A stretch of DNA of 64,000 nt from Sipunculus nudus. Its lineage: Eukaryota > Annelida > Sipuncula > Golfingiida > Sipunculidae. Shown here piece after piece: positions 4,601-53,098 of this stretch. Below the pieces are notes generated by a model. The model did no database searches. It had not been told where the DNA came from and saw nothing but the letters and a program-made list of their open reading frames with translations. Positions within the stretch are counted from its first letter, which is position 1. Each line of letters opens with the position of its first letter. A program made the translations under genes and the position numbers. The stretch covers positions 1,449,318-1,513,317 of the forward strand of contig CM049314.1 of NCBI GenBank assembly GCA_026874595.1, read 5' to 3'.

Positions 4601-7600
4601 GTGAGGTGCTATACTTTATGAAGCACCTTCTAAGTTGTAGCTCTAGTATATTGTGAGGTGCTTAAATTTACGAAGCACATTGTAAATTGTGGCTCGAGTA
4701 TATTGTGACGTGCTATACTTTATGAAGCACCTTGTAAGTTGTAGCTCTAGTATATTGTGAGATGCTTAAATTTACGAAGCACATTGTAAATTGTGGCTCG
4801 AGTATATTGTGAGGTGCTATACTTTATGAAGCACCTTCTAAGTTGTAGCTCTAGTATATTGTGAGGTGCTTAAATTTACGAAGCACATTGTAAATTGTGG
4901 CTCGAGTATATTGTGAGGTGCTATACTTTATGAAGCACCTTCTAAGTTGTAGCTCTAGTATATTGTGAGGTGCTTAAATTTACGAAGCACATTGTAAATT
5001 GTGGCTCGAGTATATTGTGAGGTGCTATACTTTATGAAGCACCTTCTAAGTTGTAGCTCTAGTATATTGTGAGATGCTTAAATTTACGAAGCACATTGTA
5101 AATTGTGGCTCGAGTATATTGTGACGTGCTATACTTTATGAAGCACCTTGTAAGTTGTAGCTCTAGTATATTGTGAGGTGCTTAAATTTACGAAGCACCT
5201 TCTAAGTTGTAGCTCTAGTATATTGTGAGGTGCTTAAATTTACGAAGCACATTGTAAATTGTGGCTCAAGTATATTGTGAGGTGCTATACTTTATGAAGC
5301 ACCTTGTAAGTTGTAGTTCTAGTATAGTTTGAGGTGCTATACTTTATGAAGCACCTTCTAAGTTGTAGCTCTAGTATATTGTGAGGTGCTTAAATTTACG
5401 AAGCACATTGTAAATTGTGGCTCGAGTATATTGTGAGGTGCTATACTTTATGAAGCACCTTGTAAGTTGTAGCTCTAGTATATGGTTAGTTTGAATACTT
5501 TATGAAGCACCTTTTAAGTTGTAGCTCATTATATTTTGAGGTGCTATACTAAATGTCGCACCTCGTAGGTGGTAGCTCTAGTAGGTTTTTAGGTGCTGCT
5601 GAACCTATCTGTTCAGCTGAATTCTGGATGTGTATTAGTTCAAAAATTTAAAATCTGTTACGGTGAATACTGAAAATCCACTTATATGCCATTGAGTGAA
5701 TAACTGAATTTACAGATATGTAAAGTCCATACATGATGTAGATTGCTTTGGTATTAGCATTCAAAATTACTACTATACTTCTATAAAAAAATTCATTCCT
5801 ACTTCATTGATGATATTTATGTTATATAAATATTATCATTGCAAATAAGATAGGGCTTCCTTTAAGGTTAGAATGTTTTATTGTACAGAAAGACTGTACG
5901 CTTAGAAGACTCTGTCTCTGATCATCCAGGTTCTGGGGCCTATAGGCCGCAATTTACGCCAACCTGGCAACGCTGGATTTCAAGTTTGTGCAGTTTATAA
6001 ATTTTCCGATATTATAATTTTACTTTAAAAGGATGCCAAGCGGAAAGAGAACGTCCTTGTCCGAGCTGGTTTCAGGATGAAGAAAGGTAAACTCCGCCTT
6101 CTGTACAGTGGCGACGCCATACCACAGAAAGGGAAACCATGTCATCCGAGAGGGGTCGGAGGATCTGGGTATGCCGTGGTTGTTGACAACCCAAAGTTTC
6201 CTGAACACGAGTTCTTCCGCCCTGGGAGAATCTTCCCCGTGCGCATGCGCCACAGTAATGCTTCATTTGAAGATGACGCCATGGTCGACGGCCGTGTAGC
6301 CTGCATAAAGGTTGGTAAATAGTTCTCACTTATACATATTTCTTATCCATAAACTAGCAGATATATTACATGTATATATATTCATATATGATATGGTAAT
6401 GTTTGGGAGAACAAGTATACATCCCTAAGAATTCAGATACTGAGGTTTACTTCCGTCTTTATTTTCCACACGACAGGAAGTAACATATCTCTAAGAGACA
6501 CCTTTTTTCTTATGAGATCATGTATTAATATTATTTTAATTATTGTTATGAACGAAGAATTACGTTTCACAGAATAGTTATGGAATTGTGTTTTACATGA
6601 ATACTACTCCGGGCATCTGATAAAATGATTAGTAGACATTTTATTAAGAAACTAAAATGTAATGGAAGGTCTTTTTGTAACCTTATATTCAATGCCCCTA
6701 TTTCCATATACTTTACTTTTTCAGTTTGGGGACACGGATCAGGGCTCTCCCCTGGACTTGATTCTGCGTACTGGTCGGGTCGGTCTGTACCACAATGCTG
6801 AGGCCTTTGAGGGATACAGGGACGCTTTCCTTAAGGGAGGGATCCACACCAAGGCCTGGTGCCTGCAACAACCCACCAAGTAGGTCACGTGGAACGCCCT
6901 TATTAGCATATGAATATACTAGACGCAGGCCGTATACAGTCAATAACGGCGCATTTTATATATGACAAGAACAGGAACATTGACCTTTTATTAACTAGAT
7001 GGCGCTCTCATGTTGTCAGTGGTAGAGATACATATTTTTTATATACAGCGCTTGGGTTTCTGAAACGCAGAATTCAATTATGTGGTATTTACAAGCAGAT
7101 ATTTCACGCTTCCTTCAAGATAGCGCAGTTTGGAGCACTTGGTACGCTATTACACGCTGTTTCGGCTGGTTAAATGGATGTATCTTTTAAACAAAGACTT
7201 TCAGCAGTGTATGGACAGCATATGTCAGGCTGCCGCTTCATGTTTTAGGTGGATAATCGGGGCCTCGGCTACTTAATTTGACTGTTGCCCTCAACGTTAA
7301 AATAACAAAGTATGTTGGTATCTTTGATTTTGCAAGCTGCGGCCAAAACGGGTTCAGTGATACGTGGGTTACCTAAAGGGGTGTGGTTGAACCAATCACT
7401 GTTGACAGAGTCAGTGGTGAGCTAGGGTGATTAAACAATACTTGCATGGGTGACTAAGAGTACCGCTAAATACATGTAAACTTAAACAAAGTGAATAATA
7501 CGTTTATAGTGGAATGTAAGAATATGTTAACTTAAACGTTAATACATATACGCTGCCTTGCACAAGGGTGTTAGTACAAGATACAAGCACATCAGCCGAC

Positions 7601-10600: not shown

Positions 10601-13600
10601 TCATGATATATTAAATTCTCATTTAGGGAATGTGATCGTCGGGGGGACACGGGACTGCCATCAAACTACCTGAGGAAGGAATATACAGAGAGGATCAACA
10701 CAGGTCCAGTCAAATACAAGATACAAATACAGCTGTGTAATCCTAAGGAGAGCCAAGACGACCTTGACATTTATAACCCTTGCTTAGAATGGCAGGACCC
10801 TACCCCAGAATGGCTTGACCTGGCCACCATCACTTTGTTCTTTCACCTTCCCGAAGATTTGATTTTGAAGACAAAGTTTAGCTTGACACACTACCCGCCA
10901 TCATTTTATATACCAGAAGCAACGTCAACGAGGGACTTCCGATCAGTAGCCACGGCAACGGCAGACCTTCATGGTTCAATTGCAGAAAATGGAGATCTGG
11001 ATGACGGTGTAAAAGAGAATAAAGAAGAAACAAATAACGTCACATATTCAGTAACCATAGAGACAGGGAATGAAAAGAATGCTGGGAATGACTCAACTGT
11101 ATACATTACAATTACAGGTAAAACAAATCTTGTCTGAGTCAGAATGGCGATATTTTTCACGAACATTTTACTGGATTGATGCAAAGTTGAATGCTTGTGA
11201 CATTTACTTTATAGTATGAGAACATGTACATCAAACCTATTGTTTACGCATAGCCAGAACTCTGAAAGCTTAACCACCGTACAACGGAAAGTGGTCGGAA
11301 AGAAGAGTCGAAATCAACACTGATGTATACTGGTTGTATGAAACATGATTTGTTTGAATATTAGAACCAAAATCAGATAAGAAAACTGTGGTACTAATAC
11401 TTCCGGAAAAAAAAATCTTATTTTTACTTTGTAAATTATATCTCAATATTTAAGGCACGGAGGGAAGAACCGGTCCAATTTGCCTAGAAAACGTGCTCCA
11501 TCACTTCCAACAGGTCCCTGATCATGCCATGGAGGTAACAGCGCCACCTGTGGGGGATATGATCACAGTGCAGGTAAACATGACCGATCACCATATACCA
11601 GACATGATCAGAGTGCTGTGAGCGTGACCGATCACCATATATCAGACATGATCAGAGTGCTGTGAGCGTGACCGATCATTATGTCTCAGACATGATCAGA
11701 GTGATGTGAGCGTGACCGATCACCATATATCAGACATGATCAGAGTGCTGTGAGCGTGACCGATCATTATGTCTCAGACATGATCAGAGTGCTGTGAGCG
11801 TGACCGATCACCATATACCAGACATGATCAGAGTGCTGTGAGCGTGACCGATCATTATGTCTCAGACATGATCAGAGTGCTGTGAGCGTGACCGATCACC
11901 ATATATCAGACATGATCAGAGTGCTGTGAGCGTGACCGATCATTATGTCTCAGACATGATCAGAGTGCTGTAAGCGTGACCGATCACCATATACCAGACA
12001 TGATCAGAGTGCTGTGAGCGTGACCGATCATTATGTCGCAGACATGATCAGAGTGCTGTGAGCGTGACCGATCACCATATATCAGACATGATCAGAGTGC
12101 TGTGAGCGTGACCGATCATTATGTCTCAGACATGATCAGAGTGCTGTGAGCGTGACCGATCATTATGTCTCAGACATGATCAGAGTGCTGTGAGCGTGAC
12201 CGATCACCATATACCAGACATGATCAGAGTGCTGTGAGCGTGACCGATCATTATGTCTCAGACATGATGAAAATGTAAAGAAAGTAATTACTGTAATAAT
12301 TGTTTTGTGGTTTGACGGTCCATGTCAAACATGAACCTTCTGACAGTTTTAGTTGAAAAAAATTACCGTGATATCTGAAATAAAAGCACAAAGCTGCTGG
12401 TAGTGCTAATGACAACATTAATTAAAGCATTCGCACATTTCATTCATGATTTTACGACGACACTAATTTTCTTAGCTGGACCTCCAGTCTGCATCTACGT
12501 ACAGTGAATGGCTCATTGAATATGTCACCATAACGGAAAAGAACTCTAAAAAGGACGTGCGTTTCCATGGTTATGGCTGGTTGACAACACATGAACCTAC
12601 ATTCATTTTGAGGCGAGCGGAAGGTATCCGATAATTTAATTTTTTTTTTTGCTAATGGTAGTAATAACTTTTTTAATATTGTTATCATTATTATATACAC
12701 GAGTTATTTTAATTTTAATAGTAGACCCTATTTAAAGCTATGTTACATGGATCAATTTATTCAGGTTTTTTTTAATTCATTCATCTGAATTTTAAGTACT
12801 AGTATGTGATTATTTGGTGGCCAAAGAATCTGAAACCAACCACAGAGTGTAGACATTTGCATCTCCTGAATCGGTAAAACTAGGGCTCAACCCTTATTCC
12901 AGTAAGCTGTGTGTTCACGAACTGACACAGACTGAATACAATACATTGGTCCTCGTTCACAGCAATCCTGCCACAAAGAGAACAGTCAGATTTCAGTTAC
13001 CTGCAGCGAAAATATGAAGTGGAGGCACGTCGGGAGAAATACCATTGGGAAAAGGTTGAGGGGTTACCTGGACGGATACGCGCAGCCGCCCCCAATGACC
13101 TGCCACGTGACGCAAGGTTCAAGGACGAAAAGCAGTCTGACCTGAGTGCGAAATATTGGAGGACTCTTGCGAAAACCGGAGTTGGAAATGGTAAGGCTGC
13201 CTTTAACGCGTTTAATCCCCTGACAGACTACGTGTCGCTGATCAGTGGTCTGATGAAGAAGAAAGATTGTGTAGAGAGGATAGCCGCCTACTGGCAGGAG
13301 GATGCAGAGTTTGGGAGACAGTTCCTCAATGGTGTCCATCCACTTCGGCTCACCCGGGTGACATCATTTGATGAAAAATCAAGCATAACCGAAGAGGTTC
13401 TCTCCCGATACCTGGATAGAGGATTGACCTTGCACGAGGAAATAGACGTATGTATAATTCAAAATTATAATATAAATGATAATTCAAATATTGATATAAA
13501 CAGAGACCTTAAGAGAGCGAAGGTATCTTTCCAAAGGCCAAATGATTTGTTATATTCACCTGGTGCTTAAACACAGCTTTATACATACACCCTTTTCACA

Positions 13601-16302
13601 TGCAAAGTGCTAGTTGCATTTAAGAGTTTGAACACTTTTTTAGCATTTAAAACCCCATTGTAGAAGTTTTCAAAAGCGATTGCGGTTTGCTTGTGTTCCC
13701 ATTTATGCACATTACTCTAGAAATGGGGTATTTTAATTTACCGTTAACCAAATATCTTTTTTTTCAGATTAATCATAAAATGTTTTGCTAAACGCCATCC
13801 AAATCGGCAAGAGTAGGAATAAATAATTAAGTAATAAGTATTATGGTTAATTAATTGACAAGCTCAATAGTGCCGCCTTTGAGTAGTATATGACTTGTAA
13901 CGGGTAGATTAGAATATATTTAGCAAATTTTAAGAATAAAAGTTTAAAAACAAAAACAACGCTAAGCATGTAGGCAATCGAAAAGCCATATCCTCACACA
14001 CAAACGACGTAATGCATTTTATATGAAAATATTCAAATGTAAACAAAGGTTGATTTCATATTCTAGCATATTTAGACTACGATGGCCAATTTTGGACTTC
14101 GAAAAGCTAGTCATCTTACTTTAAAATGTTAAAGCATGATTATTGTTCTTTTTCATAGTCTTCTTTTTGACATGAAACTATCTTGTATCGTCACTTTCTT
14201 GCATTTTCTTCATAAATTGCAAGAACCAAATAGAGTGGAAAACATTTAAAACTCGCAGTTTGACTCGTATTTTTGTTTTGCAAATAAATTGCAACAGCAT
14301 AAACGAATGGTGTTAATATTTATGGGATTTCTTATAAATTGCAATGACATATTTGAATAAAAAGAACTGCTCATGTATCGTGTGATTTGTTTTTAAATTA
14401 AGTACGATTACATAAGTACCATTTAAAATACTCATACTGCAAATTTGGTAATTTTATTTCTTTATTTTTTTCCTCGGTAGGCTGGACATGTTTACATTTT
14501 GAATTACCCCGAGTTCGTTGGAAACGAGGTTCTCCCTGACAGTTCTGGCCAAGGCAAGTGTCACATCCCTTCGCCCATCTGTCTATTTTACGTGAAACCA
14601 TCAGGTGACCTTGTCCCTATAGCAATACAGTTGTACACCACGGCCGAAAAAGACGCTCCAGTGTGGACTCCAGCAGACGACACGTTGGACTGGACGCTCG
14701 CTAAAATGTGGGTCAAGCTAGCAGACGCGCATACGCACCAGTTGTTTTCGAGGCAACTTAGGTGTCACATGATTATGGAAGCTGTTGCCATTGCAACGAT
14801 GAGAAACCTGCCTTCCATGCACCCTATTTTCAAACTGCTTATTCCTCACCTGGGCGATGTCGTTGCTGTCAATGCGAACACACGCATGTCACTATACAAG
14901 GCCACGGATTTGGAGAAATTTCTCGCAGCGGGTTCACATTCTGAAAAATTCCTACGCATAGCCTACCAACGGTTCCGGTTGTCAGATTTACACGTGCCGA
15001 ATGAGTTACGTAGACGCGGGGTAGCGGAGAAGGAAAAATTACCGAACTACCATTTCAGGGACGATGCGTCTGAGCTATGGCGCATCCTGCAAAAATTTGT
15101 GCGCATCGTGGTGATGTTGCAGTACTCGGACGACAAGCATGTTAAAAATGATGAGGAGCTCCAGTCATGGATCCGAGATCTACATGACAACGGGCTTCCT
15201 CAGTGGGAGGGGGATATGGACCACGAGGTACCGAGTTCGATCCCCTCCATTGACAGACTGATTGATTTTTTGACCATCATCATTTTTACCACATCTTGCC
15301 TGCACTCCGCCCTGACAGCGGGAATGATGCATCATTACGGATTCTGTCCAAATTATCCTCCCCTGCTAAGGACAGCGCCACCTATTGTCAAAAGAAAAAT
15401 TGAAGAAAAGGATATCCACGCCGCCTTGCCAAACCGGAAGCAGACGGCCCAGATCGTTGCTGCGTGTTATACACTGGCTAAAGCTAACAGGGATGAAGTA
15501 TGTGTTTTTTTTCTTAATTTTGATAAACAGCTAAATAGGACAAAAGTTAAAAGAAATAATCGCAAATATATCATAACAACTAAATAGGACACAATGTAAA
15601 AAATTAAACACAAAGATATCATAACAGATAAATAGGACAAAATGTAAAAGATATAATCACAACTATATATTAACAGCTAAATAAGACAAAATGTAAAGGA
15701 AATAATCACAAATATACCATAACTGTTAAATAGGACAAAATGTTTAAGAAACAATCACAAATATATCATAACAGATAAATAGGACCTCATGTAGAAGAAA
15801 TAATCACAAATATATCATAACTGTCAAATAGGACAAAATGTAAAAGAAATAATCACAATTATATATTAACAGCTAAATAAGACAAAATGTAAAGGAAATA
15901 ATCACAAATATACCATAACTGTTAAATGGGACAAAATGTAAAAGAAATAATCACAATTATATATTAACAGCTTAATAAGACAAAATGTAAAGGAAATAAT
16001 CACAAATATACCATAACTGTTAAATAGGACAAAATATAAAAGAAATAATCACAAATATACCATAACTGTTAAATAGGACAAAATATAAAAGAAATAATCA
16101 CAAATATATCATAACAGATAAATAGGACCTAATGTAGAAGAAATAATTTCAAATATATCATAACTGTAAAACAGGACAAAATGTAAAAGAAATAATCACA
16201 AATATATCATAACTGTCAAATAGGACAAAATGTAAAAAAAATCACAAATATATCATAACTGTTAAATAGGACAAAATGTAAAAGAAATATTCACAATTAT
16301 AT

Positions 16303-18540: not shown

Positions 18541-18705
18541 CTGGATAAGAGTCGATGGGTAAAACGCTCGGCGCTCTCCACTCTCGACCCGGGTTCGAAC
18601 CCCATCGTGGCTATGAGAGTTTGCTATAGTTTGCAAAACACCACTTGCAAAGCCCTGGCTTATCTGACTTGCTGTCAGATGCCCTTCTTGAATTTGTTTT
18701 GATTA
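18535..18705 (+). mobile_element. tRNA-derived SINE
   Basis: The head GTCGATGGGTAAAACGCTCG is followed by a B box GGGTTCGAACCCC and then GTGGCTATGAGAGTTT. The same layout appears at 49640-49865 (GTCGAGTGGTGAAACGCACG, B box GTTCGATCCCC, GTGGCTTTGAGAG), so the two are members of one family. There is no acceptor-stem pairing, so it is not a tRNA gene. Confidence 0.6.
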
Positions 18706-23718: not shown

Positions 23719-24516
23719 TGTTACATGTATATGTTTATTATGCGCAGGAATTTGCATGGCTTGACATGTGCCTAGCGTTCTGATTCGTGTTAGGCGCAAG
23801 CACTATGCGTTGCTATGGCAACCGCACTTGTTTAATTATGGCTTACCCGCAGAGTGTTAAGATACCGTGTTCTTTGTAGTCTAAAAGGTTCGAGTTTGTT
23901 CTTTGATATGTTCCGGACTATGCGCTTCTGGACTTTGGTGGGGAAAAGCTATAAATAGGGGCTGTGTTTGGAGCCGGCAAAAAGGAAAATACCAGCGGGC
24001 ACTAAAGGGTGCGACTTTCTTGTCAGTCTTAGGACCTACTCTGATAATTGCATAGTTACAGATATTCTATGGACTTTATACAGACTTTTTACAGATTTTA
24101 TACAGATTGTCTTCAGTGTGCCTTTGGAATTTTACCTGAACTTCACTTTTGAATTACAACAGATTGTCTTCGAGATTTAATTGGACAATACACCGGGAAG
24201 ATTTACTTGAATTGTTCACGTGGATTGTTTGTGCTAAAAGGTTCTTGTTGGACTGTGACAGTTGTAGTATCCTGGAATCAAAGCCTAGGATCCAGACTCT
24301 GGTGATGTACATTTTCATTACTGTTATTTCTTAAATACTGTGTAATTGTATTGATTTAGTGTATTGTAATTTTTGGATTGTTCTAAGAAAAAATTATAAT
24401 CATTTCTTATCAAAAACCACTAACTTCTTTAATTGCCTAGTGTTGCGGAATCTAATTTTTTTGTCTCCGTAACAAGGGTTTGTGAATTATTTGTGTTATT
24501 ATTATGTTCCGTAACA
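23719..24516 (+). mobile_element. Solo LTR, target duplication ACAT
   Basis: Begins TGTTACATG and ends TTCCGTAACA (798 bp). It is flanked by ACAT at 23715-23718 and 24517-24520. A TATA box TATAAATAG at 23950-23958 is followed by GGGCTGTGTTTGG, matching the same block in the copy at 52272-53094. The 3' portion (AACCACTAACTTCTTTAATT... to GTTCCGTAACA) is also shared. No internal retroelement genes adjoin it, so it is a solo LTR left by recombination, of Ty3/Gypsy-like type judging from the TG...CA ends and 4-bp duplication. Confidence 0.88.
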
Positions 24517-24598
24517 ACATATTCAAAAAAACTTTAAAATGGTAAAAATTTTATACAATGTGCGCATAATTTTACAGCTACGATCTGCAACAGGGTAC

Positions 24599-25019
24599 TG
24601 TTATGGGGTGACATAAAAGCGGACCGAACTGTCTCGCTAGTGAAGCTTGCTTTGCTAGCGAAGCGGTTGGTACGCCGGACTTGTGCGCCACCAACACGGG
24701 TTCGAAACCGGGAATTTTTCCCTCAACAATTTGCCATCATAACAAAATGGTGGCTCGTCTAACTTTACAGTTAACTTTGTGGCCCAGGGAATAAGCTCAC
24801 CAAAGTGTGACTCCTGGGATAATTGGTCTTGTTCTGATAGCAGAACGCTCTTAAGAGGGGGTGTGTTACGGGGTGACATAAAAGCGGACCGAACTGTCTC
24901 CCTAGTGAAGCTTGCTTTACTTGCGAAGCGCTTGGTACGCCGGACTTGTACGCCACCGACCTGGGTTCGAATCCCGGATAGGCCCAGAATTTTCCCCTCA
25001 TTTATTTGTCTTCGTAACA
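24599..25019 (+). mobile_element. TRIM: 421-bp miniature LTR retrotransposon with tRNA-like LTRs, target duplication GTAC
   Basis: LTR1 24599-24744 (starts TGTTATGGGGTGACATAAAA, ends CATCATAACA). LTR2 24864-25019 (starts TGTTACGGGGTGACATAAAA, ends TTCGTAACA). Direct GTAC flanks lie at 24595-24598 and 25020-25023. Three bases after LTR1 is a primer-binding-site-like TGGTGGCTCGTC (24748-24759), one mismatch from the first 12 bases of the well-known tRNA-Pro type PBS. A polypurine tract AAGAGGGGG ends just before LTR2. The 119-bp interior has no coding capacity. Each LTR contains a tRNA-like stretch. In LTR1 the A box TAGCGAAGCGG (24656-24666) and B box GGTTCGAAACC (24699-24709) match consensus. 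LTR2 has B box GGTTCGAATCC (24964-24974) and a weaker A box. The two LTRs differ at several sites, so the insertion is not recent. Confidence 0.88.
24656..24709 (+). promoter_or_regulatory. Internal Pol III-type promoter (A box + B box) inside TRIM LTR1
   Basis: A box TAGCGAAGCGG at 24656-24666 fits TRGCNNAGYGG exactly, and B box GGTTCGAAACC at 24699-24709 fits GGTTCGANNCC exactly. The 32-bp gap between them is normal for tRNA genes. A T-run (AATTTTTC) follows at about 24713. LTR2 repeats the arrangement at 24921-24974 with a perfect B box. Transcription from it is inferred, not shown. Confidence 0.65.
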
Positions 25020-25244
25020 GTACATACCAATTATTGTCCTGTTAGAGAAGGTGTAACTGGCTATTTTTCCACAAAATATATCCAAATTGAGCAGAGCCTC
25101 AGAAAAAGTCCATCTAGCCTCACACATGCGCAGTACATTCATGTTCATCTGCACAAATCTATTCTGCTTTCGGAATACAACACAGGGAATTAAACGCGAT
25201 AGTCCTGGCGTTAACACAGCTCAGTGTATCCTCTCCTGCGGCTC

Positions 25245-25445: not shown

Positions 25446-25705
25446 TAGCTAATTTAAAGTGTAAATTTTAACTAAAGATATGTTCTCCATTCTATACATA
25501 GGAGACCATTTATCTATACGGTCATACATATTCATTTGCTTATGGATAAGAAAAACAAAGGACAAGTGGGTCACGGGGCTCAGCGGAGATTGAGTATGAT
25601 TTTTTTGTTATAAAAATCGAACATATTGCAATTCGGCAAAAACAAATTGTTTTGTATATCATTATTATATACAAAATAAACCCCTCTGAAGTTGTCTGTG
25701 TACTT

Positions 25706-26506
25706 TGTTACGAAACATAATATAAACAGATCACGTATGCGTGATGAACACAAATTTTGTAATGGAGATTCTGTAACACTAGGCAGCTTGAAAGGTCTAG
25801 GGGAATTAATAAAGGCGTCAGTGGTTTTTTGGTTAACAAATAACCATAATTTATTCTTAAAACAACACAAACATTACAATACACTAAATCAATACATTAT
25901 ACAGTAAAACAGCGGTATAACAACAAATCAGTACAATCACACAGTAAAATATACAAAGTGCACATTACCTGGATACCACCACCGTCACAACGATAAGTTC
26001 TTTAAATGTATACTCTCGGAGAATGACAGTCCATTGTAAAGCTATTGTAACAATCCACAAAGTAAACTGAAGTCCAAATGCACAAAATCCAGGAGAAAGT
26101 CTGACGAAAATCTATACTTGCCGCACTCGTCGGATAAGGTCCCAGAAACTGACACACGCTTCTGCGTCTGCTGGAAATCTTCTCTGCTGCTCTCCCGGCT
26201 CTAAAACACAGCCCCTTTATATACTCTTCACCCCAAGCCGAAAATTTTCCACTTCTCGAACAGTGTAAAAGATCTTACACAACACAGTAAACACGCGTTA
26301 CAGGACTCATCTAGAAGAACATCGCGGTGTGTCTCTACATACCAGGGTCCACACGTGACTCACGACCAGGCGAGAAAGCCCAAGGCTAGCATGACAACGA
26401 GAGTTCAACCAGTACGGATTAAACTGCGAATGTAACAAACGGCCCGGCGAGGGTGTCACATAACGAGTTACGCCCGTGTCACACAATAAAAAGAGCACCT
26501 GTAACA
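25706..26506 (-). mobile_element. Solo LTR, minus strand
   Basis: On the minus strand it runs from TGTTACAGGTGCTCTTTTTA (26506 side) to TTTCGTAACA (25706 side), 801 bp. It matches the LTR at 52272-53094 over both ends and the middle (GAACTCTCGTTGTCATGCTA; GGCTTTCTCGCCTGGTCG). A TATATAAAGGGG lies near 26214-26225. Flanks ACTT and AATT differ by one base, so the target duplication is uncertain. Confidence 0.85.
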
Positions 26507-27205
26507 AATTTTATGGGCTACATGAAAGCTGAAGGAGCCTCTCATGGTTACGTATTTGTATGTAAGGATCAGTATCTCAATTCATTGACTGTAATATGCA
26601 TGCAAATAATAATTATTTAATTAATTTACTTGAAATAAGAGGGTGTGAAAAAAATCAAGTTTTCCTTTCTCAAATTAGAATACTTCAAAATTGATAAGCA
26701 TGTTAAAACAAGCCAATTTTGTGAACATCGCTCTGTGCAACAAATAAAAAATGATACATGAATCCATTTTATTATCCAATTAGGAAAAAAATTGGAAATG
26801 AGTCTAAGAATTTATTGTTAATACATAATTATGCCTTTAAAAAATTCAAAACTGTTTTCATGGGTTTACCAATAATTATTATGTGCAACGGCGATTGTAA
26901 TTACGCATTACAGGTTTGTACTGTATTTGTGGGTTATTCCATTATCAACCCTTATATACCTAGCAAAAATAACAAAGAAATCATTCTTGACTGAAAATGA
27001 AAAGTAAAATATTTTGATTTAAAACTAATTTGCTGAGAGGGTATCTCTGATACATGTGAGTGTCGCATCATGGAATGTATTTTTTTATTATATATAGACA
27101 AAATGAAAATATACATACATTGGGAACAAACAAATACACAGAACAAATAACAAACATTACATAAATACCCAGGTACAAATATGAGCATACTTCGTATAAA
27201 TTTCA
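26507..27205. other. Unassigned AT-rich sequence
   Basis: No gene, RNA or clear repeat seen between the minus-strand solo LTR and the following LINE fragment. Confidence 0.4.
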
Positions 27206-31949: not shown

Positions 31950-34695
31950 TTAGATTGTATCCTTGTCGCTGGTTTCTCAAGAAGATCCGTCAACGATGAG
32001 GTGTTTTTTGGTTGCCATCTTCTCATGCAGTTCGGTCAGCCACTTAGGGTATAGTGCTCATGCACTTCGGTCAGCCACATTGCGTGTAGTGCCATCTCCT
32101 CATGCAATTCGGTCAGCCACTTAGCGTGTAGTGCCATCTCCTCATGCACTTCGGTCAGCCACATTGCGTGTAGTGCCATCTCCTCATGCAATTCGGTCAG
32201 CCACTTAGCGTGTAGTGCCATCTCCTCATGCACTTCGGTCAGCCACATTGCGTGTAGTGCCATCTCCTCACGCACTTCGGTCAGCCTCTTTGCGTGTAGT
32301 GCCATCTCCTAACGCACTTCAGTCAGCCACTTAGCGTTTAGTGTCATCTCATCATGCACTTCGGTCAGCCACATTGCGTGTAGTGCCATCTCCTCATGCA
32401 CTTCGGTCAGCCACTTAGCGTATAGTGCTCATGCACTTTGGTCAGCCACATTGCGTGTAGTGCCATCTCCTCATGCAATTCGGTCAGCCACTTAGCGTGT
32501 AGTGCCATCTCCTCACGCACTTCGGTCAGCCTCTTTGCGTGTAGTGCCATCTCCTAACGCACTTCGGTCAGCCACTTAGCGTGTAGTGTCATCTCATCAT
32601 GCACTTCGGTCAGCCACACTGCGTGTAGTGCTATCTCATCATGCACTTCGGTCAGCCACTTAGCGTGTAGTGCCATCTCATCATGCACTTCGGTCAGCCA
32701 CATTGCGTGTAGTGCCATCTCATCATGCACTTCGGTCAGCCACACTGCGTGTAGTGCCATCTCCTCACGCACTTCGGTCAGCCACTTAGCGTGTAGATCC
32801 ATCTCCTCACGCACTTCGGTCAGCCTCTTTGCGTGTAGTGCCATCTCCTAACGCACTTCAGTCAGCCACTTAGCGTTTAGTGCCATCTCCTCATGCACTT
32901 CGGTCAGCCACTTAGCGTATAGTGCTCATGCACTTTGGTCAGCCACATTGCGTGTAGTGCCATCCCCTCATGCAATTCGGTCAGCCACTTAGCGTGTAGT
33001 GCCATCTTCTCATGCACTTCGGACAGCCACTTAACGTGTAGTGCCATTTTTTCATGCACATCGGTCAGCCGCATTGCATGTAGTGCCATCTCCTCACGCA
33101 CTTCGGTCAGCCTCTTTGCGTGTAGTGCCATCTCCTAACGCACTTCGGTCAGCCACTTAGCGTGTAGTGTCATCTCATCATGCACTTCGGTCAGCCGCAT
33201 TGCATGTAGTGCCATCTCCTCACGCACTTCGGTCAGCCTCTTTGCGTGTAGTGCCATCTCCTAACGCACTTCGGTCAGCCACTTAGCGTGTAGTGTCATC
33301 TCATCATGCACTTCGGTCAGCCACACTGCGTGTAGTGCTATCTCATCATGCACTTCGGTCAGCCACTAAGCGTGTAGTGCCATCTCATCATGCACTTCGG
33401 TCAGCCACATTGCGTGTAGTGCCATCTCCTCATGCACTTCGGTCAGCCACACTGCGTGTAGTGCCATCTCCTCACGCACTTCGGTCAGCCACTTAGCGTG
33501 TAGATCCATCTCCTCCCGCACTTCGGTAAGGCTCCTTGCGTGTAGTACCATCTCATGATGCACTTCGGTCAGCCACTTTGCGTGTAGTGCCATCTCCTCA
33601 GGCACTTCGATCAGCCACTTAGCGCGTAGTGCCATCTCTTCATGCACTTCGGTCAGCTACTTTGCGTGTAGTGCCATCTCCTAACGCACTTCGGTCAGCC
33701 ACTTAGCGTGTAGTGCCATCTCCTCATGCACTTCGGTCAGCCACATTGCGTGTAGTGCCATCTCCTCATGCACTTCGGTCAGCCACATTGCGTGTAGTGC
33801 CATCTCCTCAGACACTTCGGTCAGCCACTTAGCGTGTAGGGCCATCTTCTCATGCACTTCGGTTAGCCTCTATGCGTGTAGTGCCATCTCCTCAAGCACA
33901 TCGGTCAGCCACACTGCGTGTAGTGTCATCTCCTCATGCACTTCGGTTAGCCACATTGTGTGTAGTGCCATCTCATCATGCACTTCGGTCAGCCACACTG
34001 CGTGTAGTGCCATCTCCTCACGCACTTCGGTCAGCCACTTAGCGTGTAGTGCCATCTCATCATGCACTTTGGTCAGCCACACTGCATGTAGTTCCATCTC
34101 CTCACGCACTTCGGTCAGCCTCTTAGCGTGTAGTGCCTTCTCATCATGCACTTCAGTCAGCCACTTTGCGTGTATTGGCTTGATTGTTGACATCTTGCTA
34201 TCAACTTTCACGGCTTGTATGTCATCTGCGTCTTCTGTGTCGTTCATTTGGCCGACAACCATATCAGTATACCATTGGTTGTATTGTTGTTTTAGTGATG
34301 TCTTATATTCTTTATTGAACGATAGATCCAAAGGCTGCAGAAGGTTCGTGCATGCATCTGGCATCATGCAATTGCGAATATTATTTTCACAACCTTTAGT
34401 ATACCAGTGTCTGTGCGTACACGATGTTCACGAGGAGGGCTGTCTGGCGTTGATTTTCCATTTTTGTCCTCTGCTTGTGAACGTAAGGCAGGATGATGTT
34501 GTCGGAAAAGCGAAGCATCGTGTTTTTCATTGCTCAAGTGATTATATTGCGGCGTGGTAAACTTCCCAATCCCTAGGAAACTCTTTTTACGGCAGCCACT
34601 TTTCTGTCTTACCTGCGTAGAGGAGTTAAGGCGAAAGTGGTGAACCGCTCATCGCAACACCGAGGAGGATGGTGTTATTGCCCATTCCATGGATA
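31950..34695 (-). pseudogene. Decayed pogo/Tigger-like DDE transposase interrupted by a minisatellite
   Basis: On the minus strand from about 34690 the reading gives typical DDE_1 transposase blocks with stops and frameshifts. These are NNTILLGVAMSGSPL and LLYAGKTEKWLP (about 34690-34590), FPRDWEVYHA (about 34575-34545) and MLRFSDNIILPYVHKQR (about 34530-34470). An open piece then runs from 34367 (CTNLLQPLDLSFNKEYK, then MSTIKPIHAKWLTEVHD). The LQPLD..FNK..K and HAKWL pattern is characteristic of the transposase C-terminal half. After HAKWLTEVHD the sequence becomes about 50 tandem 14-residue repeats, then ends with LHEKMATKKHLIVDG near 32010-31970. Clearly inactive. Confidence 0.8.
32040..34165 (-). 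repeat. 42-bp minisatellite, about 50 copies, encoding 14-residue repeats of transposase origin
   Basis: The + strand unit is TGCACTTCGGTCAGCCACAT + TGCGTGTAGTGCCATCTCCT + CA. On the minus strand it reads MALHAKWLTEVHEE and variants (AMW, AVW, AKR; DE/EE). The unit is an exact multiple of three, so frames stay open for several hundred bases and produce spurious open frames on both strands. The ancestral segment is visible at the 34165 side, joined to transposase sequence. A few units are broken by a stop (CCTAACGC variants) or by a short deletion (TAGTGCTCATGCAC). Confidence 0.93.
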
Positions 34696-34699
34696 GGGC

Positions 34700-36040
34700 C
34701 CTGAAAAACAATTACAAGTATTTTACATGTTTAATGAATAATTGCAAAAACGGCCTACATTTTTAAATCTTACTAAAATCTTGTTTCTTTAAAAATTATT
34801 TATTCTAAATTATACAATTTATTATGATTTTCATTATCTTATTACAAGTACACATTTTCTAACTTTGAATCGTCATTATTGTCTTCTTTTTGTCCTGGCG
34901 GGGAAAAAAAACCTGTACCCGATATTATAAACGTTGCCATAACTTTTACATGCAGTTACTTCTATATGCGACTATATATTTCGTGTCAGTTTCATAATCA
35001 AATAATAAGTAGTTGAATTAGGGGAGAGAGGGAGAGAGAGGGAGAGAGACAGACGAAAATCGCTAACCTGTGTTGCACCCTTTGCGCCATAGTCCAGTTG
35101 CCTCCTTGTACAATGTTGCAGCAAGTCTGATTCCAGTTTTCACCAGATTGTTCGGGATGTTTTCTTCAGTTCCTTTCCTTATGTTTCGGTCTTTTCCATC
35201 CACTTTGCCTTGATTGGTGCGAAGTCCTATGGCCCTTAACCCCCTTTGTACTTTTGTTTTAATTGTAGCCCATCCTTCCCAGCAACGACCTACCCCAAGT
35301 CTTTGTTATCTCTATGCTGCCTTCATTCGAGACCAGCCGGTGCCGCGCGAATTATCCAACAAGGTAATAATGACAAGGTAAAAAGGTGGGGTTTTATAGT
35401 CTGATATCACCGACGATGTCAGTCTCATCCGACTGTACACTTTGACTTCTTGGTCTTTTCGGCTTGTTCATTCTAGTAGCCTTTCTCAACTCCCTGGGGA
35501 TTTTTTTTTATTGTTGCGCATGCGCTACTGTGATGGCTGCTTTTTATATCTGCTCTGCATTTTGCCGAAGTTTTAGTTGATAAAACCTTATACAGCCCAG
35601 GTTTTACTCCATACAAGGACTTTACAATATCGGGACAATATACACTCTTTACCGGGTGAGTTTTATTTGATGATTTAAACAAAAATCACAGAGATATTGT
35701 TCAAGTCAGATCGCACCCAAAACAAAGTAAACCAAGATGGCTTCCATTTAAACAAACTGGTCTGTTTATTCTGATATCAAGATATTTATTATTTAGACTT
35801 ATGATATCTGATACATCAGTTAAAACATCAACCAAATGTTATCCATGAGGGTATAACCCGTGTATTTTAGACTTCAATCAGATATAAGGACATTTGTGGT
35901 GTTATACACATCACAAAAGAATTATTGCGTCGTCGATTCCAGCCTGTTGACAACACCTAATCCCGCATATTTACCTCCACGACGTCATTCACGGCGTCAA
36001 TCACAATACGTGTTGGCTCGTCAGGGCCTGAACGGGGGAT
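34700..36040. other. Unassigned sequence between transposase relic and CR1-like LINE
   Basis: A purine-rich GGGAGAGAGGGAGAGAGAGG microsatellite lies at about 35021-35055. The rest may include the 5' part of the transposon and the 5' UTR of the LINE, but nothing can be named. Confidence 0.4.
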
Positions 36041-36041
36041 C

Positions 36042-36824
36042 ATGAACGACTCGCTCATTCGCGCTGCAAGACTCAAAAGGGACTCCGTTGAGCCCTCACT
36101 ATTAAAAGCCCATGGTGATCTTTGTGAGAAAATCAAAGCTGAGTGGATGGCAAAAGTAAATAAAATGACTTTACATGAAACCAACATATTTACCAAAAAC
36201 AAATGTCTACGAGATATCCGTAGTAAACTTTCAAAATTAAATAATGTTCCAGATGAGGTAAGAAATTGTGATAGTTGGTTCATGGCAAACGGAATTGCCA
36301 ACACCGTGAGTGAACGGAAGCAGGCATTAGCAAAGCAGTCCGTGTGCCCTAGAACAGATGATAATTCTTCTGCAGCCAGTCAACGAAAGTCAAAGAATAC
36401 TCGCAGCTCGATAAAACGAAAATCCTTAACTAGTGTCCCGTCGACAGCTGGTCAAGTATTAATCTCCGCTGACCAGACATCATCATCTCCTGTGTTATCT
36501 ACATCGGCGGGATCGAACCAAAATACTGCCAGTGCTGCTCTGAATACTCAGAGTAAATCTAATGACAATACTTCGATTCCAGAGCAAAGAAATGTTTATT
36601 GTTCTTATAAGTGTATCTACAGCAAAAAACATAGTGACCAATCTATGGTGCAATGTACTTTATGTGTTAAGTGGTTCCACTGGAACTGCACTGGCGACCT
36701 AGAAAGTGAATACCCTACCGTTTGGACTTGCCCCACTTGTCGTGTTCTTCCAGAAACGGTAAACGCAATAAACATCAAACTTGAAAAGCTCCTGGTATTA
36801 CATTCAGATCTACATAAGGTATGA
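36042..36824 (+). pseudogene. LINE ORF1 piece with PHD zinc finger
   Basis: 260 residues. The C-terminal part has eight zinc ligands in PHD (C4HC3) order: C187, C191, C205, C208, H213, C216, C230, C233, with the usual Trp (W228) two residues before C230. The N-terminal half is basic and Ser-rich. In CR1-type LINEs this domain is part of the nucleic-acid-binding ORF1 protein. The frame ends at a TGA before the esterase domain, which in relatives is part of the same ORF. Confidence 0.8.
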
Positions 36825-37159
36825 TCGCATAAAACTCATGAATGTGACAGACTTAGAGAGGAAAACTCCTAGCTTAAACAACAACTGGTGAATGGAACCC
36901 ATCACCACGAATCATCGAACTCCTGTCAATCATATATCACCATTGATCGCACTTCGGACGCATCAAACATCATACCCTCCGACGACGATGGGCCTGGTGA
37001 TATGTCTTGATGACACAACGTGTTCTACATCAGAATCGTCTTTATCTGATTATGAAGGTGATGTCTCTTTCCAGGAATGTGAGCTAGCCAGTGCTCCTTA
37101 GCCAGTGAATACATCCCACCATTCTACACCAATTATCGCCCAGCGTGGAAACCCGACGA

Positions 37160-37710
37160 CTATAGAACATCTTCGTTCCAAATCGTCCTTGGGTCTCACT
37201 ATTCTTGGTGATTCCATGACGAAAAGACTTGACATCAATGCAATACAAAAGACCACACATGTTTCTATTCGTAAAAACTCCAAATGTTACACAATCGATC
37301 AGTCTAACGTCAGCTAACGTCTCTGATGATGCGGTGCTAGTACATGTTGGCACAAATCACATAGAACATGAATCTGCTCATGACATCATTAAGACTCTCA
37401 GAGAACTAGAAGAAATCTTGAAAAATAACGCAAATGTTAAATATATCATATTCAGTTCCGTTGTAGCTAGGAAGTGTGCATCATATGAAGCCAGGAAAAT
37501 AAGATTAGTTAACGCTGCCATAGAGGTTATGTGAGGTTATGTGGAAATAACAAATGGTCATATCTTGACAATATCAATATTGATTGTTCACACATTAGTC
37601 GGGATGGGGTACACTTGAACAAACGGGGATGTAGAGTTCTACACAGCAATTTTGCACATCTCATAGACTTGCTTGTCATATTCATAATGGTACAGAATCA
37701 ATTGAGTTAG
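37160..37710 (+). pseudogene. LINE ORF1 piece with SGNH-type esterase blocks
   Basis: Across two frames the GDS block (LTILGDSMTKRLD, about 37193-37232), the HVGTNHIEHES block (about 37342-37375) and the RDGVHLNKRG block (about 37596-37626) appear in order, as in the SGNH-hydrolase domain of CR1 ORF1. A frameshift near 37310 and a stop near 37532 break it. The canonical Asp of the GTND block is His here. Confidence 0.75.
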
Positions 37711-37788
37711 TTTAGCGATGAAAACTCCACGTCATTCAACCTACCTACCGTACTCAATAACGACCCAAAGCTTCCGATAATAAATAAC

Positions 37789-38796
37789 GTGTACTCATTA
37801 GCTGATGAGTTGCCCAGCTTATTAGAAGCTAAGGGTACAATTTTGGCGCATCTTAATGTACGCAGTTTAATACCGAAAGTTGATGAGATTCGCCAAATGT
37901 GCTTTCGTTTCAGGCCACATGTTTTAGCTTTAACCGAGTCTTGGCTTGACAAACATGTACTTGATTCTGAGGTGTCCATCGAACTTTATGTGCATTTTAG
38001 ACACGACAGACACCGACATGGCGGAGGTGTAATTATGTATATTTTAACATCCCTAAAACCGCAAGTATTTCAGCCAGTGTTTGGAAGCATTAAAAGTGTA
38101 TGGGTGAAAATTTCTCTCGGGATGAAAACTATTTTAATAGGATCCGTTTACAGGCCTCCGATTGCATCAAGTGAATATATTGATGATTTGCTAGATGTTA
38201 TTGGTCAAGCTTTTAAGATCTCTAAGTATGTCATTTTGTTAGGAGATTTTAATATTGATTACTTGCAGCCTAACAGGTTAAAATCAAGTAAACTTGATTT
38301 AGCAGAACGGTTATTTGGGATGAAACAACTAATTACTACACCTACTCGTGTTACCAAACATTCAAAAACATTGATAGACCTTATTTATACATCCAATCCT
38401 GAAATGCATTACAGTTCTAAAGTTTACCAGTTGACCCTGAGTGATCACTTTTTAACGGCAACAATTTTAAAGAAACAAAATGATGAAAAGAAGAATCCAA
38501 AATATGTACACTGTCGTAACTTAAGACTTTTTAACAAGGATAAATTCATTCAAGAAATATGTTCATCTTTTTTCATGTCATCTTTAATTCCTAACATGAC
38601 TGATCTTAATTTGGCATGGAAGATTTGGCAATCTGAATTTGAAAAAAACTGCAATAATAATGCTCCGTTCTACAAACGACGAGTAAAATCTACCCCCAAT
38701 AGATGGGTGACTGATAAAATACTAAATTTAATATATGCACGCGAATTTGCGAATAAAAAAGCAAGACGGACAAACAGTGCTTCTGACTGGAATTAA
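37789..38796 (+). pseudogene. LINE ORF2 endonuclease (EEP family) portion
   Basis: 335 open residues with AP-endonuclease-like active-site blocks: N23 in AHLNVRSL, E50 in ALTESWLD, YRPP at 121-124, GDFN at 152-155 and SDH at 218-220. The catalytic residues look intact. The in-frame TAA at 38794 cuts it from the linker (YRRLRNTVTREIRKNRSRYY) that continues in the same frame to about 39150. Confidence 0.85.
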
Positions 38797-40864
38797 TATA
38801 GACGTCTTCGTAATACCGTTACTCGTGAAATTCGCAAAAATCGCTCTCGATACTATTCTGACCTAATTCGTTCAAACGTCTCTAAACCTAGTACAATTTG
38901 GAAGGCGCTAAAGCACGTAATCCCTTCAAATAAGAACACGCAAAAAACAAATACTGATATCGACTGTGATAAATTCAACGATTTCTTTAGTTCTGTGGGA
39001 AAACTTATAAATGAAGATTTCCAAGGGAAATTTGAAACAAATTCGTTTATTATCAATTCTTCTGCAAAAACGTTCTATTTTCCTCGTGTTTCTATGCGTT
39101 TTGTCCATTCTGGTTTAATGGAATTAGATGCAACATTAAAGGATGATGTGTAAGGGATGTCTGGAATCTTTTTTATTAAAATAGCTTCATCTGTAATTTC
39201 TCCATGCTTGGCTCATCTGTTTCATCTTTCTCTTTCAACTGGCATTGTTCCTCAGGACTGGAAAACTGCGCGTATCACTCCAATTTTCAAGGGTTCTAGT
39301 ACCAAGTGTGACCCTACCAATTATCGTCCTATTTCCGTCACTGGACATGTCCCAAAAAATTTTAGAACATTTTGTAAAATGCCATGTTGTCGCATACCTT
39401 AATAAAAATCAAATGCTTACTGATAAACAGTTCGCATACCTACCAAATCGATCAACTCATTTAGACTTACATACGCTAGTCGATGAATGTCTTACTAACC
39501 TTGATAATAATAACATTACAGCTGCGTGCTTTATGGACATAAGGAAGGGTTTTGACAGCCTCGATCATTCTATACTGTTCGAAAAACTCCAGAAGTATGG
39601 AATAGAAAATGTAGAGCTCGCGTGGTTCAATTCTTATTTATCCGACAGGCGCCAGTTCGTTTCCTCCTGTGGTTCAATTTAGAAAACTTCTACCGTAAAC
39701 ATCGGTACTCCCCAAGGCACAGTACTAGGGCCTATACTATTTCTTTTTTATATGAATGATTTCCCGAGCTATATGAATAATAAGTGTATACTTTATGCTG
39801 ACGATATCACACTGCTTACCTGTGCTGATTCCGCCGATAATGCAATCAGCCATTCATAAAGCAAGATTAACATGGCCCTAAAATGGTTCAGAGTAAATCA
39901 TTTATGTATCAACCCTGTTAAATCGAGTATTGTGATATTTAGCCATAATTCTCATTTTCCAAAAACATTAACATTAATAATGTTACGTTAATTCCCGAAA
40001 ATAACACGAAACTTTTGGGTTTAATCGTCGACTCCCGCTTAAAATAGAAGGATCATGTAGATTATATTTACGATAAACTTATCACAAAATTACATGTCCT
40101 TTACTGACTTAGCAAGTTTCTTCAAACACCAACTCTAAAACTTATATAACATTCTCTTATTCAAAGCCATGTTGATTACTGTATTTCTGTTTGGGGTGGA
40201 TGCTCGAAAACGTACAAGTCAAAAATCCAGAGACTCCAAAACAAAGCTGCCCGTATTGTTATAAAAAACTTCGATATAAATACTTCTCCAGCATCATTAA
40301 TAATTCAGTTAGGTTGGATGACCGTGGAACAGAGATATCGCTTTTTTGTAAATCTTTTAGTTTTCAAATGTTTATTTGGTGATGCACCTCCTACTTTTAG
40401 ACATGGTCTCAAATATGCACGTAACCCACACAATACACGACACACGACCAGTGGCAATCTTGCCATCATAAAACCGAGAACTGATAGATTTAAATCAAGC
40501 TTTCTTTACTCAGACCCGCATTACTGGAATCAACTTCCCAATAATTTAAGACACGTAACTGATGTTAAGCGTTTTAAACAACTATATAAATCCTTTTTAT
40601 GACGATTTCCATGTTTCAAAATCAGAATTTTAGTTACTCGACCTTTATAATTGTATATGATTACATTTGTATCATATGTAGCAATCTATATGTTTTAAAT
40701 ATGTGTATGTTTAGATCGTTGTTTAAAACATTTTATTTTATTTTCAATGACTATTTTAATATGAGTATGTAATGTATATATCTTTGTCAATGTATATTTC
40801 TCTATGATATTTCCTGGACCCCATCGAAAAACAGCTGAACATGCTGAATGGGCCATCCTGGTAA

Positions 40865-41530: not shown

Positions 41531-41701
41531 TTGCCCTTATGAATGTCAGTTTATATGTCTGCTTATCTGTTTTACATATTGTCGATACTCGTACGTTATC
41601 ATTTGCTTTCAGAACTTCAAACCCTGAAGAATAATTACCATTCAAAAAAAGACCCAGCTTTGGTAGTATTTTTTAATCATACTCCTGAGGACACAAGCGC
41701 C

Positions 41702-42682
41702 ATGGAGCGGATATTTTGGAAATTACGACGAGGGCGCCTGATTATGATGTTGACTGTTTCAGTGCTGGCCGGGCAGCTGTTCCTATGGCATCATAAAAGT
41801 GAAATGATAAACGTTTATGACAGGTTTATGTCATCCAGTCGCCCGGTGTTTATCGATCCAAAGAACATACCAAGAACGTTGTATATAACATCAGATATTC
41901 GAGACGGGAGGCGCCTTGGGAACCAAATGTTTAACTATGCAGCATTGATTGGTATAGCTAAAAGAAATAACATGGTGCCAGTTTTCCAGGAAAACGCCAA
42001 AATAAATGAAATTTTTAAAATTAATATAAGAGGTACAGGGAATTTTTCAGAGTTTGGTCCCTATTTGCAGTATTATGAACAACCGAGATGTTACGATTCT
42101 CACACGGAACACTTGCCAAAGATAAATATAATGCTTCAGGGTTATTATCAGTCATATCGATACTTCGAGGATGTGACCAATGCTGTAAAAGAACAGTTAA
42201 GTTTCCACGACGAGATCGCGAGCCAAGCCAAGAAATATATGCTGACCATAATACCAGAAAACATGCGCGATCAGTCGATTGTCAAAGTAGGGGTTCACGT
42301 TCGTCGAGGTGACATGGCCGAGTCGGAGAAATTTAAATCAGGAATTCCTGGCCCAGAATATTTTCACAGAGCCATGAATTACTTTCGTGGGAGGTACAAG
42401 AAAGTCCTGTTTATAGTGTGTAGTACGGATATAAACTGGTGTCAGCATTATCTCAAAGGTCCCGACGTTGTTTTCTCACAGAGTGGATCTGCAGGAACAG
42501 ATCTAGCAATTTTGGCGAAGTGTCAGAACACATTAATGTCAGTTGGGACATTCGGATGGTGGGCAGCTTGGTTCGCTAATGGAACTACAATTTACTACAA
42601 CTTCATGGGGTCAGCCAGACAGTTACAGTATGCGACGCGGCGGAGACCATACTTCATTAAGCAATGGATCCCAATGATGTAA
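41702..42682 (+). CDS. Galactoside alpha-1,2-fucosyltransferase-like protein 1 (GT11), 326 aa
   Basis: Type II Golgi glycosyltransferase expected to move fucose from GDP-fucose to the 2-position of a terminal galactose. A short cytoplasmic tail precedes a membrane anchor at residues 12-29. Conserved GT11 blocks are DGRRLGNQMFNYAAL (68-82), GVHVRRGDM (197-205, GDP-fucose site), VVFSQSGSAGTDLAIL (256-271) and VGTFGWWAAWF (281-291). Sequons lie at N114 (NFS) and N293 (NGT). Start choice: an ATG at 41543 is also in frame and gives 379 residues. However, a polypyrimidine-AG (ATTTGCTTTCAG, ending 41612) suggests the exon starts at 41613. The ATG at 41702 then gives a signal-anchor protein matching the paralogue at 51168 in length and layout, as in vertebrate FUT1/FUT2, which have a single coding exon. 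The acceptor substrate cannot be predicted. Confidence 0.92.
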   Translation: MERIFWKLRRGRLIMMLTVSVLAGQLFLWHHKSEMINVYDRFMSSSRPVFIDPKNIPRTLYITSDIRDGRRLGNQMFNYAALIGIAKRNNMVPVFQENAKINEIFKINIRGTGNFSEFGPYLQYYEQPRCYDSHTEHLPKINIMLQGYYQSYRYFEDVTNAVKEQLSFHDEIASQAKKYMLTIIPENMRDQSIVKVGVHVRRGDMAESEKFKSGIPGPEYFHRAMNYFRGRYKKVLFIVCSTDINWCQHYLKGPDVVFSQSGSAGTDLAILAKCQNTLMSVGTFGWWAAWFANGTTIYYNFMGSARQLQYATRRRPYFIKQWIPMM

Positions 42683-51072: not shown

Positions 51073-51167
51073 AGTCACGACATATATGTATTTAGGACCA
51101 GTTTACTTACCAGAGCGGCAGTAACCAGTACTTATTAATAAAGAAAAATCCTGAAGATCACAGCATC

Positions 51168-52154
51168 ATGCAGAAATTCTTACTGAAATTATTGCGGCTG
51201 CAAGTATTTCTACTTTTTTCTTTCCTAACAGTGAAGATTTTGCTGTCACAACCCGTAAATGACATGATCGATGCATATTCTAACTATTACCTGTCATCTG
51301 ATTCTGCGGTAATAGGACCAGTATATCAAAAACACACAGTAAGGGGCCCTATCTACATCACAGCGGATATACCAGCGGGGAGGAAGCTGGGAAACCAAAT
51401 GTTTAACTATGCTGCGTTACTTGGATTAGCGAAAAGGAACAAAATGGTGCCGGTTTTTCAAGAGAACACCAAGTTATACAAAGTTTTCAAAACGACTATG
51501 TCAACCACGGGGAATTTTTCAGAGTTTGGTCCGTACCTGCAGTATTACGAACAATCTAGGTGTTACGACTCCCACACAGAACATTTACCAAAAATTAACA
51601 TCAAACTCCAAGGGTATTTCCAGTCTTGGCGATATTTTGAAACAGTAGTCGATGACGTCAAACGACATTTAAGTTTCCATGACGACATTGTGAAGCAAGT
51701 CGATGAATATTTACCGTCGATAATACCAGAAAATATGCGAGACGATTCATATGTAAAAGTAGGAGTCCATGTACGCCGCGGAGATATGGTGGAAATCGAA
51801 AAATTTAGAAAAGGACTTCCGGGATCGGACTATTTCCACCGGGCTATGGAATATTTCAGAAAGAAGTTTGAGAAAGTTCTATTTATAGTTTGTAGTAACG
51901 GTATACAGTGGTGTATGGAGAATCTCAAAGGGTCAGACGTCGTCTTCTCGCAGAGCGGATCTGCCGAAATGGACCTGCTAATATTGTCAAGATGTCAGCA
52001 CACAGTGATGTCTGTTGGCACGTTCAGTTGGTGGGCAGCCTGGTTCGCAAACGGAACTACCATTTACTATAATTTCTTTAAATCTGATAGAGAACTTAAA
52101 TCCATGATTAAGCGGAGGCCGTATTTTAAGGAAGATTGGATTTCAATGATATGA
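51168..52154 (+). CDS. Galactoside alpha-1,2-fucosyltransferase-like protein 2 (GT11), 328 aa
   Basis: Paralogue of the gene at 41702, roughly two-thirds identical by eye, same strand, about 8.5 kb downstream. Membrane anchor at residues 9-26 (VFLLFSFLTVKILL). GT11 blocks: GRKLGNQMFNYAALLGL (71-87), GVHVRRGDM (199-207), VVFSQSGSAEMDLLIL (258-273), VGTFSWWAAWF (283-293). Sequons at NFS (116) and NGT (295). The presumed acceptor at 51072 is 95 bp before the ATG, against 89 bp in the paralogue, so the exon layout was duplicated too. The two proteins differ most in the stem (residues ~30-60). An AATAAA at 52246-52251 follows a short poly-C run at about 52160. Expected role: Golgi fucosylation of glycans; the acceptor is unknown. 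Confidence 0.94.
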   Translation: MQKFLLKLLRLQVFLLFSFLTVKILLSQPVNDMIDAYSNYYLSSDSAVIGPVYQKHTVRGPIYITADIPAGRKLGNQMFNYAALLGLAKRNKMVPVFQENTKLYKVFKTTMSTTGNFSEFGPYLQYYEQSRCYDSHTEHLPKINIKLQGYFQSWRYFETVVDDVKRHLSFHDDIVKQVDEYLPSIIPENMRDDSYVKVGVHVRRGDMVEIEKFRKGLPGSDYFHRAMEYFRKKFEKVLFIVCSNGIQWCMENLKGSDVVFSQSGSAEMDLLILSRCQHTVMSVGTFSWWAAWFANGTTIYYNFFKSDRELKSMIKRRPYFKEDWISMI

Positions 52155-52251: not shown

Positions 52252-52271
52252 ATATCACTGTATCCCTACGT

Positions 52272-53094: not shown

Positions 53095-53098
53095 ACGT

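Follow-up and report, generated by a model that had tools for sequence, protein, structure and literature searches.

Genomic context and structure of the element

The 64,000-nucleotide stretch of DNA analysed here (the window) contains protein-coding frames, LINE-like pieces, tandem and dispersed repeats and, at positions 24599-25019, a short element bounded by two LTRs. Two open frames (41543-42682 and 51096-52154) encode glycosyltransferase family 11 proteins of the alpha-1,2-fucosyltransferase type, which are 64% identical over 313 aligned columns and apparently represent a local duplication. Lipoxygenase exons occupy 12926-15587, the best match of the second exon being 56% identical. LINE-like pieces with endonuclease and reverse transcriptase frames lie at 35961-40602, a region that also yields a weak PHD-finger-like match below the Pfam cut-off. 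Tandem repeats account for 28 rows in all, including three long satellite arrays whose repeat units measure 104 bp (2508-5597, about 30 copies), 42 bp (32057-34174, about 51 copies) and 31 bp (54268-55973, about 55 copies). Two pairs of dispersed repeats in inverted orientation, 25705-26507 with 52271-53095 (79% identical) and 24336-24431 with 25810-25906 (83% identical), each have one arm near the element. Just upstream of it, the 23 bases at 24452-24474 match the last 23 bases of LTR2 at 87%; with LTR2 as query this match has an E value of 0.07, which is chance level, though nearby.

The features of the element and its flanks are as follows.

24595-24598, no strand: left copy of the target-site duplication, GTAC; read directly, identical to 25020-25023
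24599-25019, plus strand: whole element, 421 bp; LTR pair with GTAC on both sides
24599-24744, plus strand: LTR1, 146 bp, TGTTA...TAACA; from a MAFFT alignment with LTR2, ends read
24656-24666, plus strand: A-box-like sequence of LTR1, TAGCGAAGCGG; pattern search and reading
24699-24709, plus strand: B-box-like sequence of LTR1, GGTTCGAAACC; pattern search and reading
24715-24719, plus strand: run of five T just 3' of the LTR1 tRNA-like unit; putative Pol III terminator
24745-24863, plus strand: internal part, 119 bp; not long enough to encode LTR-retrotransposon proteins
24748-24759, plus strand: primer-binding site (PBS) of tRNA-Pro type; 11/12 positions, 12/18 over the full site
24853-24861, plus strand: polypurine tract (PPT), AAGAGGGGG; read directly
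24864-25019, plus strand: LTR2, 156 bp, TGTTA...TAACA; from the alignment with LTR1, ends read
24921-24931, plus strand: A-box-like sequence of LTR2, TTGCGAAGCGC, with 2/11 mismatches; found with the loosest pattern only
24964-24974, plus strand: B box of LTR2, GGTTCGAATCC; pattern search and reading
24990-24993, plus strand: run of four T 3' of the LTR2 tRNA-like unit; putative terminator of the full-length RNA
25020-25023, no strand: right copy of the target-site duplication, GTAC; read directly

A complete element of this length, with two LTRs and a GTAC duplication, had been proposed in an original prediction made from the sequence, and its coordinates proved right. In a MAFFT alignment, the two LTRs are identical at 127 of 146 gap-free columns. 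The 19 differences, of which 11 are transitions, give a K2P distance of 0.144. LTR1 also lacks 10 bp relative to LTR2, a gap that cannot be placed exactly; an ungapped match covers 115 bp at 90% identity. Because the LTRs differ by this K2P distance, the insertion of the element is probably not recent, and the element is, judging by their divergence, an old and decayed copy. Of the stop-to-stop frames with 110 aa or more, one overlaps it, an antisense frame of 128 aa at 24655-25041 that has no Pfam family match up to E 0.1. Within the 64-kb window, no second copy of the element was found, chance-level matches aside. Exact element patterns were likewise absent from viral contigs (two patterns) and from prokaryote genome contigs (one pattern). 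Neither collection is a likely source of animal DNA, which leaves these zeros with little weight.

The original prediction placed a PBS-like site and a polypurine tract at the inner edges of the LTRs, and both could be located. Three nucleotides, AAA (24745-24747), separate LTR1 from the PBS. Of the 12 bases that open a tRNA-Pro-type site, the PBS matches 11, and no other site in the window, whichever the strand, is this good; over the full 18-base site, the match falls to 12/18. No second copy of the PBS of the element occurs elsewhere in the window on either strand. PMC1769482 gives the reference site as a complement of tRNA-Pro. Because the PBS was scored against this single reference, another tRNA whose 3' end is similar could be the primer instead. 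At the other edge, the PPT stops two bases, TG, short of LTR2.

tRNA-like units in the LTRs

Each LTR contains a tRNA-like unit defined by A-box and B-box sequences, as had been predicted for a TRIM in an animal genome. Box pairs were searched with 25-50 nt between the boxes, and 200 simulated windows with the dinucleotide content of the window served as the control. With patterns that were chosen after the sequence had been seen, the pair TRGYNNARYGG and GGTTCGANNCC occurs once in the window (A box at 24656, B box at 24699) and in none of the simulated windows, while TRGYNNANNNG with GGTTCRANNCC occurs once in the window and once in the 200 simulations. The loosest pair, TNGYNNANNNN with GGTTCGANNCC, is found four times in the window, always inside the element, and three times in the 200 simulations. 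The boxes of LTR1 had been called perfect and normally spaced. Their spacing stands, at 43 nt from the start of the A box to the start of the B box; perfection does not. The strict B-box consensus is GGTTCGANTCC, from which GGTTCGAAACC of LTR1 departs at one position and GGTTCGAATCC of LTR2 at none.

Between LTR1 and LTR2, 3 of 22 box positions differ, as do 16 of 124 positions outside the boxes, counts that shift with the placement of the 10-bp gap; the comparison reveals no extra conservation of the boxes. Since the two LTRs derive from one insertion, selection on the boxes is not demonstrable by comparing them.

A real tRNA gene in the LTR was considered and ruled out: ARAGORN in its default mode calls no tRNA in the element, and the region 24500-25120 matches no Rfam family at E values up to 1. 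Two further ARAGORN modes returned no tRNAs in a 622-nt region. Lowered score thresholds gave four and five low-score tRNAs in the same region, and these were disregarded as untrustworthy. Given no tRNA match in Rfam or in default ARAGORN, the tRNA origin of the unit rests on the boxes and their spacing. RNA folding of the tRNA-like unit is not better than that of shuffled sequence (z 0.51 and 1.56). The unit is taken to be promoter-like rather than a working tRNA.

The two T runs in the feature list are the only runs of at least four T in the element, and each directly follows a tRNA-like unit. Both are plausible candidates for Pol III terminators.

Relationship to Helenus and other elements

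The combination of LTRs with tRNA-type boxes corresponds to Helenus, a group of TRIMs with tRNA-derived sequence in their LTRs that is placed together with Ajax and Cassandra in TRIMp3 (Kojima, 2024; PMC10886601). Helenus has been reported from fungi, a plant and six animal phyla, at lengths of 311-1263 bp. Animal families have 4-bp target-site duplications and PBS regions that resemble those of Gypsy elements, and they are probably mobilised by Gypsy machinery. In bivalve Helenus, several primers occur, tRNA-Pro among them (Kojima, 2024; PMC10886601).

Judged by its anatomy against this published description, the element shares the Helenus features that were compared. It has an LTR pair with TG...CA ends and a 4-bp duplication at the outer ends, and the duplication, GTAC, is of the length found in animal families. 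A- and B-box sequences of the tRNA-derived type are present in both LTRs, together with a PBS and a PPT; LTR1 has the strict A and B pair, and LTR2 combines an A box of the loosest pattern with an intact B box. The tRNA-Pro-type primer site is as in some bivalve families. Finally, the 421 bp of the element fall inside the reported range and hold no mobilisation proteins. One difference lies in the A box. Of the five positions in the core given by Kojima, TRGCY, LTR1 retains four and LTR2 three, so that the A box of LTR1 is one position off the core. Based on these features, we consider the sequence at 24599-25019 to be a Helenus-type (TRIMp3), protein-less miniature LTR retroelement, transcribed and mobilised as proposed below, with a probability of about 0.88.

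The same source changes two parts of the original prediction. Because Helenus was published in 2024, the suggestion of an undescribed class has been dropped, and Helenus, with tRNA-derived sequence in its LTRs, takes the place of Cassandra as the closest analogue. Cassandra shares a Pol III-type promoter within TRIM LTRs; in contrast, it is a plant TRIM of 565-860 bp (Kojima, 2024; PMC10886601) whose LTRs carry 5S rRNA instead of tRNA sequence. No 5S rRNA was matched in the LTRs of the element by Rfam at E values up to 1 across 24500-25120. The idea of a hybrid between SINEs and LTR elements was sound, and the existence of such hybrids in animals has been in print since Kojima (2024; PMC10886601). 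By title and abstract, that paper is the only one among the papers listed by literature searches to report tRNA sequence inside LTRs. The element described here contributes one clean, independently spotted copy of a group that would join SINE-type promoters to LTR-type mobilisation.

Proposed life cycle and alternative readings

From the observed anatomy of the sequence, we infer how transcription, termination, mobilisation by a helper and priming may proceed. Directed by the tRNA-derived A and B boxes of LTR1, RNA polymerase III would initiate transcription 5' of the A box, continue past the first T run and through the internal part, and end at the T run behind the tRNA-like unit of LTR2. The resulting RNA would bear a tRNA-like unit at each end, which would constitute the R repeat. 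An autonomous LTR retrotransposon, most likely a Gypsy element, would supply the proteins that package this RNA. First-strand DNA synthesis would be primed by tRNA-Pro at the PBS and second-strand synthesis at the purine tract, and integration of the DNA by the Gypsy-type helper would create the 4-bp duplication. In a variant with a leaky terminator, the R repeat would be defined by read-through at the first T run and a stop at the second, yielding a short tRNA-like RNA as well as the full genomic RNA. Against this mechanism, many Pol III transcripts should stop early, at the T5 run in LTR1. Other observations that count against the overall reading are the single copy seen, boxes that are conserved no better than the remainder of the LTRs, the lack of a tRNA model match and of better-than-shuffled folding, the departure of both A boxes from the TRGCY core, the drop of the PBS match to 12/18, the 2 nt between PPT and LTR2, and the absence from the window of a further copy of this PBS.

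The position of the T5 run within the 5' LTR also suits a different reading, in which the element is an ordinary TRIM transcribed by Pol II, its LTR holds a captured, now inactive piece of a SINE, and the boxes survive as a relic that has no promoter function. The lack of extra conservation of the boxes between LTR1 and LTR2 points the same way. In addition, Helenus is proposed to have arisen when a SINE inserted into the LTR of a TRIM, and experiments are stated to be necessary before a functional Pol III promoter can be concluded for it (Kojima, 2024; PMC10886601). LTR1, however, retains both the box sequences and the A-to-B spacing, and conservation around the A and B boxes is seen across Helenus families (Kojima, 2024; PMC10886601). 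We regard a relic without promoter function as improbable.

The repeated unit has a tRNA-type promoter as in SINE heads, and the window contains another tRNA-type B box. A lone tRNA-type unit at 18543-18620, with a B box, GGTTCGAACCCC, at 18592, is probably the head of an unrelated SINE. Both observations would fit two tRNA-derived SINEs that lie side by side by chance and mimic LTRs. SINEs of this kind (SINE2) resemble the element in their tRNA-derived A and B boxes; they are non-LTR elements mobilised by non-LTR retrotransposons (PMC10886601). In contrast to SINEs, which have no LTR pair, PBS or PPT, the element has all three in addition to its 4-bp duplication. A single GTAC duplication encloses both repeats, and the PBS and purine tract sit at their inner edges. 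Moreover, each repeat has 57 bp ahead of its A box and terminates in TAACA, and neither has an A-rich tail by eye. On this anatomy, a chance pair of SINEs is very improbable.

Membership in biv-TRIM, an earlier TRIM family of bivalves that is likewise a lophotrochozoan TRIM of similar size without coding capacity and would suit a probably lophotrochozoan host, is barely credible, since its repeats measure 202-218 bp and its internal part 77-80 bp, as against 146/156 and 119 bp here, its PPT is mostly GGGGAGA rather than AAGAGGGGG, it has no unambiguous PBS whereas that of the element is clear, the accessible text of its description mentions no tRNA-like unit in its repeats, and the conserved 14-base segment present in nearly all species is matched at 8/14 positions at best on the plus strand and 9/14 on the minus strand (PMC6934838).

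Host affiliation

The Helenus-type reading of the element also bears on host range. Annelida does not appear in the table of Helenus hosts, and the word 'annelid' does not occur in the main text of the same paper (Kojima, 2024; PMC10886601). Among the matches listed in a literature search, no annelid element of the Helenus kind was found. Tentatively, the element may be a Helenus in a phylum outside that table, most likely Annelida, whose T runs act as a leaky Pol III terminator that sets R, a joint proposal that we hold to be doubtful. If true, an annelid Helenus would be a modest widening of the known host range.

Protein searches with genes of the window bear on the same question. Lipoxygenase and LINE queries found matches in corals, fishes, a scallop, beetles, cyanobacteria and others, and gave no clear pointer to the host. 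The fucosyltransferase search gave 26 species-named rows among the best 120 of 569 matches, all of which we take to be molluscs, annelids, nemerteans or a brachiopod, which makes a lophotrochozoan host likely; within those best 120, the best species-named match is the annelid Paralvinella. A tree of 59 rows was built from the two window proteins and 57 of the 569 matches (the best 40 and 17 named ones), and it took in 19 of the 26 species-named rows. It places both window proteins within a 33-row group with support of 82/86, in which Paralvinella is the only named member, a placement that is suggestive only of an annelid affinity for these proteins.
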